Below the pieces are notes generated by a model, which was given only the letters and a program-made list of their open reading frames with translations, was not told the origin of the DNA and did no database searches. A program made the position numbers and the translations under genes. From Propioniferax innocua (GTDB taxonomy: Bacteria; Actinomycetota; Actinomycetes; Propionibacteriales; Propionibacteriaceae), in NCBI RefSeq assembly GCF_006716235.1, contig NZ_VFOR01000001.1:248001-312000 (forward strand): a stretch of DNA of 64,000 bases, given 5' to 3'. Shown piece after piece: positions 36,004 through 59,360 of this stretch (position 1 is the stretch's first letter; each line of letters opens with the position of its first letter).

Positions 36004-36225
36004 GCGTCTCCCGCCTCGGGAGATGCGGGACTCGACACCGACGCGGCACCACCGCCAGCTCACACCTCCCGCCCAGAAGAACAGGGGCTCGCTCAGGAAG
36101 ACCGGGCTCGGCCCATTGAGCCCCTACACGCATCGATTTTCTTTTAGGACAGACCGTGTCCGCATCCACCCCTCACAGGGGCAGATTCTCGGCTATCGAG
36201 GACGGGATGTGTCCTAAAAGTTTTT
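36004..36225. other. multi-hairpin intergenic element between glgP and glgE
   Basis: The 580-bp glgP-glgE spacer has no supportable gene but holds stacked inverted repeats. A 9-bp stem with one G-U pair lies at 36004-36012/36018-36026. An 8-bp pair AGGGGCTC/GAGCCCCT spans 36083-36125. An 11-bp perfect pair CTTTTAGGACA (36141-36151) / TGTCCTAAAAG (36210-36220) encloses two smaller hairpins, CCCCT-cac-AGGGG (36169-36181) and CTCG-gctat-CGAG (36189-36201), giving a multi-branched fold, and is followed by TTTTT on the plus strand. It lies outside both inferred leaderless mRNAs, so it could be an independent small RNA or a MITE-like insertion. Confidence 0.5.
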
Positions 36226-36397
36226 CCACGTATGTGAGGGGCGCCGGTCCACCCGCGCTGTGTTCCGCGTAAACCTGAATTTTCCTCGCGCAACTCGAGC
36301 GGTTCCACGTCGGCTGCCCGCACGAGGAGTCGTCGGTTTCCCGAACGAGGATCCGGCGCGCATGCGGTGTCGGTTCGAGGCCGAACTCGCCATCGAA

Positions 36398-43921: not shown

Positions 43922-45559
43922 TCACACACCGGCGGAGGGCAGCCCTCGCTTGGCGGAGCCGCTGGGTTTCCCGGTGCTTTCCGGATCCTTCGAGCTTTCT
44001 GAGCCCTTCGAGCCGTCCTCACCCGGCTCGTCCTTGCCCGGCTCGTCCTTGCCCGGCTCGTCCTTGCCCGGCTTGTCGCCGCCAGGCTTGTCCTCACCCG
44101 GCTTGTCGACGATCTCGAACTCGTACAAAACCTTCGCATCGTCCCGCAGGAGTGCGAACGTGTGTCGGCCGAGTTCCCAGGGGAAATCAGAGCCGACGGT
44201 GAAGGTGACGGTCCCGTCCGCGTTGGCGACGCCGGTCAGTTCCGTTTCGTTGCCCCAGTCCATCTGTCCGGGAGCAAGCACGACGTAGCGGAACTCCTCA
44301 CCCGGCTCGAGTCCGTAGATCGAAACATCGAGGGAGCCATCCGCAGAACCCGGCCCGGAGAGATCCAGCACGGGAGCCGGACGCGTCGGGGCGCCTTCCT
44401 CCCACGGCATGGGGACGTAAGGACGCAGACGCTCCTTGCCCGGCGTCACCGGGACGTCCACCGGATCATCCGCGGGATCCTGCAGCGGCACGTCCGGACC
44501 CCCCACTTCGCCATCGGGCCGAGGCCCGGGATTCACCACATCGGGCGCGGTCGGCTCCGGCGACGGGGCCGGCTGCTCGGTGTCGGGCTGCTTGTCCGCG
44601 TACTCGAAGTCGTAGAAGGCCTTCGCATCCTCCCGCAGCAGCGCGAAACTGTAGCGGCCGTCGACCCACGGGTGATCATTTGGCAGGGTCAGGGAGACCG
44701 TTCCGTCGGCATCCGCGACCCCGTTGAACTCGGCGTCGTCCAGCCAGTCCTGCTGGTCCGGATCGAGCACGAGGTAGTTGAACTCCTCACCCGGCTCGAG
44801 TCCGTAGATCGCCACCTCGACGGTTCCCTCAGCCCCGCCCGGACGGGACATGTCCAGAACCGGAGCCGGACGATCGGTCGGGGTCTCGGGGTCCCATGGA
44901 ATCGGTTCGTAGGGACGGAGACGCTCCATGCCGGGGGTCACCGGGACGTCCACCGGATCATCCGCGGGATCCTGCAGCGGCACGTCCGGACCCCCCAGTT
45001 CGCCATCGGGCCGAGGCCCGGGGTTCGACACTCCCGGATCCGTCTCATCGGTGTTCGCCTTCTTCTCGACGCCGGGCGTCTGCTCCTCACTCGGGGAAGG
45101 CTCGGCAGGGGTCGGGGCCTCGGACGGCTGGGCCGAGGTCGGAGCGTCACTCGGCGTCGGCTCGGTGGCGCTTGGTTCATCCGTGGGCTCGGCCGTCGGT
45201 TCGGGTTCCTGGGTCGGCTCAGCCGTCGGTTCGGGTTCCTGGGTCGGCTCAGCCGTCGGTTCGGGTTCCTGGGTCGGCTCAGCCTCCTGAGTCGGAGCGG
45301 CCTCCTGCGTCGGAGCGGCGTCCTGAGTCGGAGCGGCATCCTGCGTCGGAGCGGCATCCTGCGTCGGAGCGGCATCCTGAGTCGGTGCAGGTTCCTCGGC
45401 AGGTGCGGACTGTGTGGCGGTGGGTTCCTGGATCTGTGTGGGTTCCGGCTGTGGCGTCTCGGCGTTCGCCGGAACGGTCGTCGAAATCGCAGAGAAGGCC
45501 AGAGCGGCTCCCAAGGCGATTCCTGTGGCGGGCTTCAGTACAGAGGTGGGTCGAAGCAT
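43922..45559 (-). CDS. secreted repeat protein with Pro/Thr/Gln/Glu-rich stalk
   Basis: A 545-aa exported protein. Signal peptide residues 1-about 34 (KPATGIALGAALAFSAI...VPANA|ET). Residues about 35-165 are a low-complexity stalk (PTQDAA and PTQEPEPTAE repeats). Two copies of a module of about 125-145 aa follow, each with NPGPRPDGE, LQDPADDPVDVPVTPG, IYGLEPGEEF, a DGTV strand and FALLR.DAK..Y.FE. The tail is charged (KPGKDEPGK repeats) and ends RGLPSAGV: an LPxTG-like motif but no membrane anchor after it, so sortase attachment is unlikely. ATG at 45559 with AAGGGAA upstream. Cell-surface role inferred; family not recognised. Confidence 0.75.
   Translation of the reverse strand: MLRPTSVLKPATGIALGAALAFSAISTTVPANAETPQPEPTQIQEPTATQSAPAEEPAPTQDAAPTQDAAPTQDAAPTQDAAPTQEAAPTQEAEPTQEPEPTAEPTQEPEPTAEPTQEPEPTAEPTDEPSATEPTPSDAPTSAQPSEAPTPAEPSPSEEQTPGVEKKANTDETDPGVSNPGPRPDGELGGPDVPLQDPADDPVDVPVTPGMERLRPYEPIPWDPETPTDRPAPVLDMSRPGGAEGTVEVAIYGLEPGEEFNYLVLDPDQQDWLDDAEFNGVADADGTVSLTLPNDHPWVDGRYSFALLREDAKAFYDFEYADKQPDTEQPAPSPEPTAPDVVNPGPRPDGEVGGPDVPLQDPADDPVDVPVTPGKERLRPYVPMPWEEGAPTRPAPVLDLSGPGSADGSLDVSIYGLEPGEEFRYVVLAPGQMDWGNETELTGVANADGTVTFTVGSDFPWELGRHTFALLRDDAKVLYEFEIVDKPGEDKPGGDKPGKDEPGKDEPGKDEPGEDGSKGSESSKDPESTGKPSGSAKRGLPSAGV
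44445..45022 (-). repeat. 86-nt near-identical duplicated segment in the secreted-protein gene
   Basis: 44445-44530 and 44937-45022 differ at one base and are offset by exactly 492 nt (164 codons); they encode the VPLQDPADDPVDVPVT part of both modules. The rest of the modules is more diverged, suggesting recent gene conversion or strong local constraint. Confidence 0.8.
45190..45382 (-). repeat. 30-bp and 18-bp tandem repeats coding the stalk
   Basis: Three about 30-bp units (gggtcggctcagccgtcggt core, about 45190-45279) followed by about five 18-bp units (gtcggagcggcatcctgc core, about 45292-45382). Both lengths are multiples of three, so copy-number change alters stalk length without frameshift. 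Confidence 0.75.
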
Positions 45560-57071: not shown

Positions 57072-59360
57072 TCAGCTCAAGCGAGCCCTCTTGAAATAGC
57101 TAGTCTCTTCGGGAGTAGCATCCCCGAAACTGGGCAGCCCCTCCGACACCCTAGGTTTAGCCCAAGGCTCACCATAGACGCTCTTTCCGTTCCATGCGAG
57201 CCATCCGCCTTGGAAGTCCTGAAACGTCAGCCCGTCCTTCTTATACTCTCCAGTAGTAGGATACCCCAACTGACTACGCTCCCAGCCCATATTCGCCCAG
57301 TGGGACTTAATCTTCCCTTCAATGGGTTGCGCGCCAGTCTTCGGCGACCAATAGATGGAACCGTTTCGATACTGGAAGTGCTGCCCACACCCACCGTCAC
57401 GAAGTCCACAAAACTCGTCAGTTCGGGGGTACCCGAAGCGTGACTTTTCCCAGCCCATCTCCCCCCACCGGTAACGAATCATTCCTTTGACAAGACGGGC
57501 CCCAACTTCTGGATGAAAATAGATGTACCCTTTTTGGAAACGTTGCAAGCATCCGCCATCACGCAGCCCACATATCTCGTCAGAGACAGGATAACCAAGA
57601 CCCTTTTCCCATCCAGCGCTCCCGTATTTATTAAATATTTTTCCCCACACCGCATGGGCCCCAGAAGCTGGATGGTAGTAGACGTTTCCCCCTTGAAAGC
57701 GAGACACGCATCCATCACCCGAAAGCCCGCAGATTTCGTCTGCCGTAGGGTATCCGAGTCGACCGTTCTCCCACCCGAGATCCCCCCACTTTTCGCGGAT
57801 TTTTCCCTTGATGTAGTGAGGCCCAGTTGCAGGCGACCAGTAGACCGACCCTTCGCTGAAAACCGTAAAGCACCCATCATTTTTCAAGCCGCATGACTCG
57901 TTCTTTTCAAGGGTTCGCCCAACCGAATCATTCACGACTCCCCAGTGATCAGTAATTGCAGATCCCTGATTGGGGCAAGAGGTTCCTTTCGACGGATTAA
58001 ACCGCACGCTCATCGCCGCATTGGGTGCAGGACCAACGAGCTGCAGAAAAGACTTCGAGGCGAACCGATAGGCACATTTGTCCATGCCTACGGAGCGAAC
58101 GAGTAGCTCATGACTCGGGGCCTTGGAGTGCTTTCCTTGAACAGTCAATGTTCCATCAGATGTGGATTCTACAGAGAGATTTACGTCAATAGGGCCAAAC
58201 CAGGAAGCGCCGGGGCACAAGGGATTCCCGGCGCTCAGATGCACACCATGGTAAGCTCGCCCGGAAGTGCTAGGCCCCCCTTGACTGGTACTGTTGTCGC
58301 TCGCCTGCCCTGTCTTGATGACATTCTTCTCGGTATCATAGAGGCGCGTACTGTTGACATAGGAGCTAAACTCGCTCGAGTACTCATCCCCATCCCACGA
58401 ATAGCTCAAACGTCCAGAAAGCTTAGAATTCTTGTAATCAGACTGGGTACTGGAGGAGAAATGGCGATTATTTCCATCGAAGTACGCGCCGTTTGGCGCG
58501 CTGTTTAGGCACCCCTCCGGTTTGGGGACGTACTGGAAGGGGATGAAGGATCGCCACTCCAGGGAGACCTCTTGTCTCGTGCGCTGAGGCGCTACATCTA
58601 CCCTGCGCGGCGCCCTGGAGTCACCACTGCGCTCACCGGAACCGCCAGAAAGGGAGAATTGATCCCGCTCTTCTGCATAGATAGATACCCGATAGGAATA
58701 CGACGATGGCTCATCTCCCTCTGCCTCCGGGTCATCTGCAGTGATTTCGTAGACATGCTCCTCAGCGGGTGGTACTGAGTCATCGATGAAATGGGGGTCA
58801 GTTGTATTGGCAATCAGACCTCCGTCCCGGAATACCTTCCAAGAGAGATCCCTCGTTTGCGGACCCCACCAGCCCAATGATACCCCTTGGTCACTCTCCA
58901 CGGTCTGGACCGCTGGAACGTTGTGCTCAGCATTAGTTTGGGGTGGCGACACCTTCGTGTCTAGCTGCATGAGAGCCACGCTGCTGGAGTGGGTCTCCGT
59001 AGAATCGATCCGAACTACTCGAAGGGCATTTGGGGTCCCCCATGGAATTAGCGTCTGCCCACCATCTAATCGAGGCTCCGCCGTAGGGGTGGGCTCCGCC
59101 GTAGGGGTGGGCTCCGCCGTAGGGGTGGGCTCCGCCGTAGGGGTGGCCCCTGCGGGGGCAGCGTATACCTCATGCTCGTACGGCCCCTCGGGCCATGAGA
59201 CCCCAACCCCCGCCTCGGTCAGAGTCAGAGTCGGTAACGGAGCCGGTGTTTCTGCAAGCGCTGGGGTGCTACTCGACCCCACTAGGATTGATGAAGCGAG
59301 GAGGGTGAAGCCGACTATCCAGGCAGTTGTTGTTCGCACACATGAGACGATAGAGCACAT
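57072..59360 (-). CDS. secreted LGFP-repeat protein
   Basis: A 762-aa exported protein. Signal peptide residues 1-about 36 (TAWIVGFTLLASSILVG...TPALA|ET). A Pro/Thr-rich (PTAEPT) stretch, a fibronectin-like region (VSLGWWGPQTRDLSWKVFRDGG), a long beta-rich domain, and a C-terminal array of about five LGFP-type repeats (W..LGWE.G.LGYP..DEICGL..GGC...FQ.G.IY.HP..GA..V.G.I) follow. The first four repeats each carry a CGL(x)3-5GC cysteine pair, probably a disulfide. LGFP repeats are linked to mycolate/arabinogalactan wall binding in Corynebacteriales-type bacteria. Start uncertain: ATG at 59360 fits the signal peptide; one at 59456 would overlap the divergent gene. GC is below the window average. 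Confidence 0.8.
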   Translation of the reverse strand: MCSIVSCVRTTTAWIVGFTLLASSILVGSSSTPALAETPAPLPTLTLTEAGVGVSWPEGPYEHEVYAAPAGATPTAEPTPTAEPTPTAEPTPTAEPRLDGGQTLIPWGTPNALRVVRIDSTETHSSSVALMQLDTKVSPPQTNAEHNVPAVQTVESDQGVSLGWWGPQTRDLSWKVFRDGGLIANTTDPHFIDDSVPPAEEHVYEITADDPEAEGDEPSSYSYRVSIYAEERDQFSLSGGSGERSGDSRAPRRVDVAPQRTRQEVSLEWRSFIPFQYVPKPEGCLNSAPNGAYFDGNNRHFSSSTQSDYKNSKLSGRLSYSWDGDEYSSEFSSYVNSTRLYDTEKNVIKTGQASDNSTSQGGPSTSGRAYHGVHLSAGNPLCPGASWFGPIDVNLSVESTSDGTLTVQGKHSKAPSHELLVRSVGMDKCAYRFASKSFLQLVGPAPNAAMSVRFNPSKGTSCPNQGSAITDHWGVVNDSVGRTLEKNESCGLKNDGCFTVFSEGSVYWSPATGPHYIKGKIREKWGDLGWENGRLGYPTADEICGLSGDGCVSRFQGGNVYYHPASGAHAVWGKIFNKYGSAGWEKGLGYPVSDEICGLRDGGCLQRFQKGYIYFHPEVGARLVKGMIRYRWGEMGWEKSRFGYPRTDEFCGLRDGGCGQHFQYRNGSIYWSPKTGAQPIEGKIKSHWANMGWERSQLGYPTTGEYKKDGLTFQDFQGGWLAWNGKSVYGEPWAKPRVSEGLPSFGDATPEETSYFKRARLS
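59074..59145 (-). repeat. 18-bp tandem repeat, four exact copies
   Basis: GGCTCCGCCGTAGGGGTG repeated at 59074, 59092, 59110 and 59128; encodes the PTAEPT stretch of the LGFP protein in frame. Confidence 0.9.

Follow-up and report, generated by a model that had tools for sequence, protein, structure and literature searches.

A dispersed 127-bp intergenic element of Propioniferax innocua carries two WYL-operator-like palindromes at a fixed spacing

The intergenic region between the divergent genes glgP (encoding Phosphorylase and DUF3417 domains) and glgE (encoding GlgE domains) of Propioniferax innocua carries an element of about 127 bp that is specific to its lineage and is dispersed over intergenic DNA in 18 copies. 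The copy described here lies at 36117-36243 of the window, by which we mean the whole 64,000-nt stretch of contig NZ_VFOR01000001.1 that was analysed, and it matches a covariance model of the element over positions 1-127, with 90 bits on the + strand and 85.3 bits on the - strand. The family is real and unusual. Judging from sequence, we lean towards reading the element as a dispersed double WYL-type operator that has probably been kept intact as a protein-binding site.

The original prediction had described a multi-branched inverted repeat at 36004-36225. Its building blocks are all there: the 11-bp perfect complements CTTTTAGGACA (36141-36151) and TGTCCTAAAAG (36210-36220) are followed directly by TTTTT (36221-36225), smaller hairpins fold within that pair (36141-36220), and two stem-loops are found upstream of it, at 36004-36026 (GCGTCTCCCG/CGGGAGATGC, 9 of 10 pairs) and at 36083-36125 (arms AGGGGCTC/GAGCCCCT). 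The limits had been misplaced, as the recurring unit runs from 36117 to 36243. The upstream stem-loops fall outside it, except for the GAGCCCCT arm, which overlaps its left end; conversely, the earlier description lacked the outer arms and A/T tracts that belong to the unit. An 11-bp arm alone is mildly unusual (when the 582-bp intergenic region was dinucleotide-shuffled 200 times, arms of at least 11 bp arose in four of the shuffles), and the 90-nt stretch folds better than its shuffles (z of -3.73 on the + strand and -4.87 on the - strand). A chance origin of the inverted repeat is removed because 18 full-length copies recur in the genome.

A DNA search of the same genome returned a second copy with 71% identity over 92 nt, and a 16-mer pattern search returned further ones. 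A covariance model built from ten copies found 18 places in the 2.79-Mb genome, each matching model positions 1-127; a second model, built from all 18 copies, found the same 18 places, with 74.5-115.3 bits on the better strand, and no further match in this genome down to E = 10. Of 1184 and 952 initial candidates, respectively, these whole-genome runs scored 150 each, so that the evidence against weaker copies comes mainly from a direct scan of 464 kb, comprising the window and 20 control stretches of 20 kb, in which the window copy was the only match. Contig C1 holds 12 of the copies and C2 the other six. Allowing up to two mismatches, the 16-mer pattern has 17 matches, of which 15 lie inside copies; the remaining two are the upstream region of a WYL gene (L009) and a place designated L020. 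Shallow searches did not find the element in other Propionibacteriaceae (196 genomes, 17 candidates scored in each) or more widely in the class (393 other genomes, 8 candidates in each); the genus is represented by the P. innocua genome alone. The end pattern had no exact match in the viral_contigs set, and the single copies tried against plasmids (L076) and phages (L071) had no match there.

Relative to the gene calls of a simple finder based on codon usage, all 18 copies are intergenic. Five lie between convergent, five between divergent and eight between tandem genes, whereas control intergenic DNA, measured by length, lies between convergent genes for 12%, divergent genes for 29% and tandem genes for 59%; the comparison of convergent placement with its control gives p = 0.056, and there is no clear orientation preference. 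The 36 neighbouring proteins have no common theme in Pfam and include no transposase or integrase, and a regulon of functionally related genes was rejected on that ground; one of these proteins, to the right of L077, had no Pfam match. Among the neighbours are an HNH endonuclease (on the right side of L068) and an N6-methylase-like protein (on the right side of L083).

Read from the outside inwards, both sides of a 28-nt spacer show the same order: a C-rich end with an outer arm, a 5-bp tract of A or T, and a palindrome centred on GGnCAGnnnCTGnCC. In the window copy, the left outer arm (36124-36135, columns 9-20 of the 18-copy alignment) and the left tract, ATTTT (36136-36140, columns 21-25), precede palindrome 1, GGACAGACCGTGTCC (36147-36161), which has one mismatch to GGNCAGNNNCTGNCC. 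Beyond the spacer (36166-36193), palindrome 2, GGACGGGATGTGTCC (36200-36214), starts 53 bp after palindrome 1 and is followed by the right tract, TTTTT (36221-36225, columns 106-110), and the right outer arm (36226-36237, columns 111-122). The two WYL-operator-like palindromes score 19.1 and 16.0 bits, respectively, with a matrix that is partly circular, its sites having been picked with the element's pattern. The outer arms are inverted and imperfect, with 72.5% of the long-stem cells pairing, and the A/T tracts differ in orientation between copies, those of the two sides often being unpaired.

The distance between the palindromes is exactly 53 bp in 18 of 18 copies when the sites are placed with the de novo motif described below. 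A plain mismatch scan gave the same spacing in 17 of 18; the exception is the window copy, whose palindrome 2 is among the weaker sites and in which that scan preferred another place, at a spacing of 32. With the de novo motif, both palindromes of the window copy (36147-36161 and 36200-36214) are the top-scoring positions of their halves. Alignment columns 26-105 contain no gap cell in any of the 18 copies, whereas the mean pairwise identity of the spacer is 0.35, compared with 0.26 for random sequence. So many substitutions without a single indel point to selection on the distance. In B-DNA, 53 bp make about five helical turns. By single linkage at 0.55 identity, the spacers form one group of five and one of six copies, while the other seven, including the window copy, stand alone; such sharing of spacers implies a copying process. 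In the flanks of four copies (L068, L071, L073 and L083), homology extends past the 127-bp unit, by about 60 bp on the left (three copies) and 20-25 bp on the right.

The likeness of these palindromes to WYL operators was found in a comparison with one regulator family, WYL, chosen from the lone 16-mer match at L009, which lies upstream of an HTH_11-WYL regulator gene of the same genome, beside a mycothiol-S-transferase/DinB-type gene. A search for homologues of this regulator in 57 genomes of the family gave 35 matches in 25 genomes, and 30 loci were used, one of them the P. innocua gene itself. Scanned with the element's own pattern, the upstream regions of 18 of these 30 genes (17 of 29 without the P. 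innocua gene) contained the 15-mer with at most one mismatch, nine of the 30 exactly, compared with eight at up to one mismatch and none exact in 177 control stretches scanned in the same way (p = 2e-12, own gene counted). Fifteen of the 18 sites are located 36-45 nt before the first aligned residue of the WYL gene; 12 of the 29 upstream regions from relatives contain no site at this threshold. A 21-bp palindromic motif, TGCGGACAGNNNCTGTCCGCA, was then derived de novo from the 29 upstream regions of other genomes, with the element excluded, its width and palindromic form having been chosen with knowledge of the element. Its log-likelihood was 200, compared with 34-40 in five shuffled sets that kept single-base content only and were run from 25 starts as against 80. 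All 36 half-sites of the 18 copies score at least 15.2 bits with this motif; for 34 of them the score lies above the highest value (16.5) in control DNA of the same genome, 400 kb in all, and 6240 random half-windows peak at 14.0, below every one of the 36.

The same TGCGGACAGNNNCTGTCCGCA palindrome stands upstream of many Propionibacteriaceae HTH-WYL genes (L106-L135), some 36-45 nt before the first aligned residue, and there it is likely an autoregulatory operator. Of the 30 WYL loci, on most of which the motif was trained, 24 have a single upstream site at 12 bits and none has two. These sites being single and never paired in 30 loci, the pair in the element is no ordinary WYL promoter. The P. 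innocua genome has four WYL-domain matches; its WYL genes lie at C1:47032, at C1:106951 and as a pair on C5. One copy of the element, L067, lies about 460 bp upstream of the called start of a second WYL gene (C1:106597-108198); no operator-like site was detected in the roughly 460 bp between that start and the copy, and none at -38. The DNA-level regulatory structure that had been proposed for this region is upheld in kind, its conserved parts being two WYL-operator-like palindromes, whereas a part played in the glycogen locus finds no support.

Published WYL operators offer points of likeness and of difference. DriD from Caulobacter crescentus has the consensus ATACGAC(X)7GTCGTAT (PMC12340889, a preprint), and the GAC-N7-GTC core of the element's palindrome has the same spacing. 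The site of SiwR, the WYL homodimer of Mycobacterium smegmatis, is an imperfect palindrome of 19 bp adjacent to DinB-type genes, and single-stranded DNA is a ligand of the WYL domain of this protein (PMC10693628); the P. innocua WYL gene beside the mycothiol-S-transferase/DinB-type gene resembles the SiwR locus in arrangement, the level at which the two were compared. A palindrome upstream of WYL genes is common to the known operators and to the palindrome type of the element. Unlike the operators of SiwR and DriD as described there, the element has its palindromes paired at a fixed 53 bp and framed by A/T tracts and outer arms, and it occurs in 18 dispersed copies beside unrelated genes. Nor does it sit, as an HTH-WYL operator does, in the promoter of a regulated gene: the window copy is at least 195 bp from either start codon, and some copies lie between convergent genes.

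As a double WYL-type operator, the element would act as double-stranded DNA, and its working parts would be the two palindromes of the WYL-upstream type, 53 bp or about five helical turns apart, with the A/T tracts and outer arms flanking them. WYL dimers would occupy the two operators from the same face of the helix, perhaps as a single complex, and selection on this binding would have kept both palindromes and their exact spacing while the sequence of the spacer drifted. A WYL protein of the same genome presumably binds the element in vivo, and the element would be retained for that binding, having probably spread by a copying process that left the groups of five and six copies with shared spacers. 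The lack of a theme among the neighbouring genes is in keeping with this reading. Against it stand the choice of the WYL family from a single 16-mer match, the 12 of 29 upstream regions of relatives in which no site was seen, the single rather than paired sites at WYL loci, and the window copy, for which the plain mismatch scan did not return the 53-bp pair. The other genomes searched, many of them with WYL regulators, also lack the element, and an unknown transposase could equally demand a fixed spacing.

The last of these points leads to the strongest alternative, which we regard as possible and rather unlikely, namely that the element is a functionless non-autonomous mobile repeat, MITE-like or REPIN-like, moved in trans by a transposase that needs the palindromes and their spacing, with a borrowed or convergent likeness to WYL operators. 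The copies are indeed dispersed, intergenic and without orientation preference, two groups of them have common spacers, the outer arms are inverted, part of the copies have CCCC at both ends, and the element was restricted to one lineage in the searches done. However, all 19 and all 6 matches to the end patterns fell within the 18 copies, so that neither unpaired ends nor a larger or autonomous element with the same ends was found, and a MITE with a parent element was rejected for this reason; more diverged ends could escape such a search. Decayed or half copies were not found either, and this alternative does not account for the agreement of the palindromes with the de novo WYL motif. A scan for target-site duplications, taking the best of 961 offset pairs, gave at least four identical bases in 8 of 18 copies, which is due to the CCCC at both ends, possibly the element's own.

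With regard to REPINs, the doublet of two inverted palindromes typical of them is present in all 18 copies. No match to PF01797, the RAYT/Y1 transposase family, was found in the P. innocua genome (98.98% complete), while the control was positive in 5 of 14 genomes. GTAG/CTAC occurs in 6 and CGTC/GACG in 10 of the 18 copies, in varying places with no common position. A REPIN identity was rejected for want of a Y1 transposase and a consistent tag. Compared with the account of REPINs in PMC3116915, the element is alike in its two inverted palindromes with a spacer and in its extragenic dispersal, and differs in the lack of a detected Y1/RAYT transposase, of a consistent GTAG tag and of singlets, in its mere 18 copies, and in a spacing that is fixed across unlike spacers. 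Compared with prokaryote MITEs as outlined in PMC10969869, it has a size within their 50-500 bp, inverted ends and a dispersed distribution, and differs in that no related autonomous element and no clear target-site duplication were found, in its internal operator-like pair and in the absence of decayed copies. The suggestion of a MITE-like insertion had been right as to a dispersed unit, present in 18 copies, but the searches gave no larger element with the same ends, Y1 transposase or clear target-site duplication. The element works partly like a MITE or REPIN, as a dispersed inverted doublet, but for each of the two some of the defining features tested are lacking.

We consider it improbable that the element is a structured RNA, either an independent small RNA or a terminator. 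The folding, which is better than that of shuffles, would fit such an RNA, as would a terminator-like match on the + strand (36199-36225), the only one in the region. Yet the window has no Rfam match, five of the 18 copies lie between divergent genes, and the A/T tracts vary in orientation among copies. The covariation of the long stem was 0.158 in the 18 copies, compared with 0.154 in shuffles, and below shuffles in the first ten copies; for the two small hairpins it was 0.156, compared with 0.154 (ten copies). The independent small RNA that the original prediction had listed is thus unsupported, for want of an Rfam match, of covariation better than shuffles in the long stem and of a constant tract orientation. 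The terminator reading was rejected for lack of a clear preference in gene context (5 of 18 convergent). Among the things that would speak against it, that prediction had also named a single-copy sequence and a lack of covariation: the sequence is multi-copy, with 18 copies in its own genome, whereas stem covariation among those copies is indeed not above shuffles.

That the element regulates glgP and glgE, as its place between these divergent genes might suggest, is very improbable, given that the 17 other copies adjoin unrelated genes, that no match to it lies in the glgP loci of the seven relatives compared (glgE is divergent in six), and that its palindromes lie far from both gene starts (about 195-265 bp from that of glgP and 320-390 bp from that of glgE). 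In view of these distances direct control of either gene is not predicted; as far as tested, the link to glycogen is incidental.

A further property of the family is a halo of tandem repeats. As detected by TRF, they occur in all 18 element-bearing intergenic regions, compared with 11 of 37 control regions of at least 300 bp (p = 2e-7), and cover 28.8% of the former compared with 4.0% of the control. Coverage falls with distance from the element, from 41.9% at 0-100 bp to 30.7% at 100-200 bp, 12.8% at 200-400 bp and 1.8-3.3% beyond 400 bp. For each of the 18 copies the nearest array is no more than 88 bp away, and seven copies are overlapped by an array at one end; the array nearest the window copy, with 1.9 copies of a 23-bp unit (36308-36351), is 65 bp away. 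Compared by eye, the arrays of most loci are unlike one another in sequence. Judged against cross-locus controls, the flank repeats the element's own end above the 99th percentile at 4 of 36 ends and above the 95th at 11. Such duplication of the end is therefore clear at some loci only, and at those four ends the element was probably present when the array formed. At L073, 59-bp tandem units include 23 bp of the element's end. A second dispersed, minisatellite-like intergenic sequence (around CAACGTCGAGGTGG) was seen in the flanks of L074 and L082, at unrelated places, and, by eye, in the control stretches L096:19421-19742 and L104:3812-4677. The window also has other tandem arrays with 15-54-bp units, at 44014-44107, 45186-45390 and 59074-59146, those at 44014-45390 lying within a called gene.

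If the element is a double WYL-type operator, bound or extruded copies may disturb replication and thereby seed the surrounding tandem duplications. More speculatively, the copies might form a chromosome-wide set of double operators of fixed geometry, bound by a WYL regulator responsive to single-stranded DNA and serving as roadblocks or anchor nodes under replication stress, with occupancy making the neighbouring DNA slip so that each copy produces its own local minisatellites. Such a scheme would join dispersed palindromic repeats, WYL operators, some of whose regulators sense single-stranded DNA, and local minisatellite formation; the literature searched showed no such link and no dispersed WYL-operator element. 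WYL proteins, if they occupy the 18 copies, would have a role beyond the regulation of local promoters. The steep drop of tandem-repeat density away from a defined element opens a direct test of what gives rise to minisatellites in bacteria.
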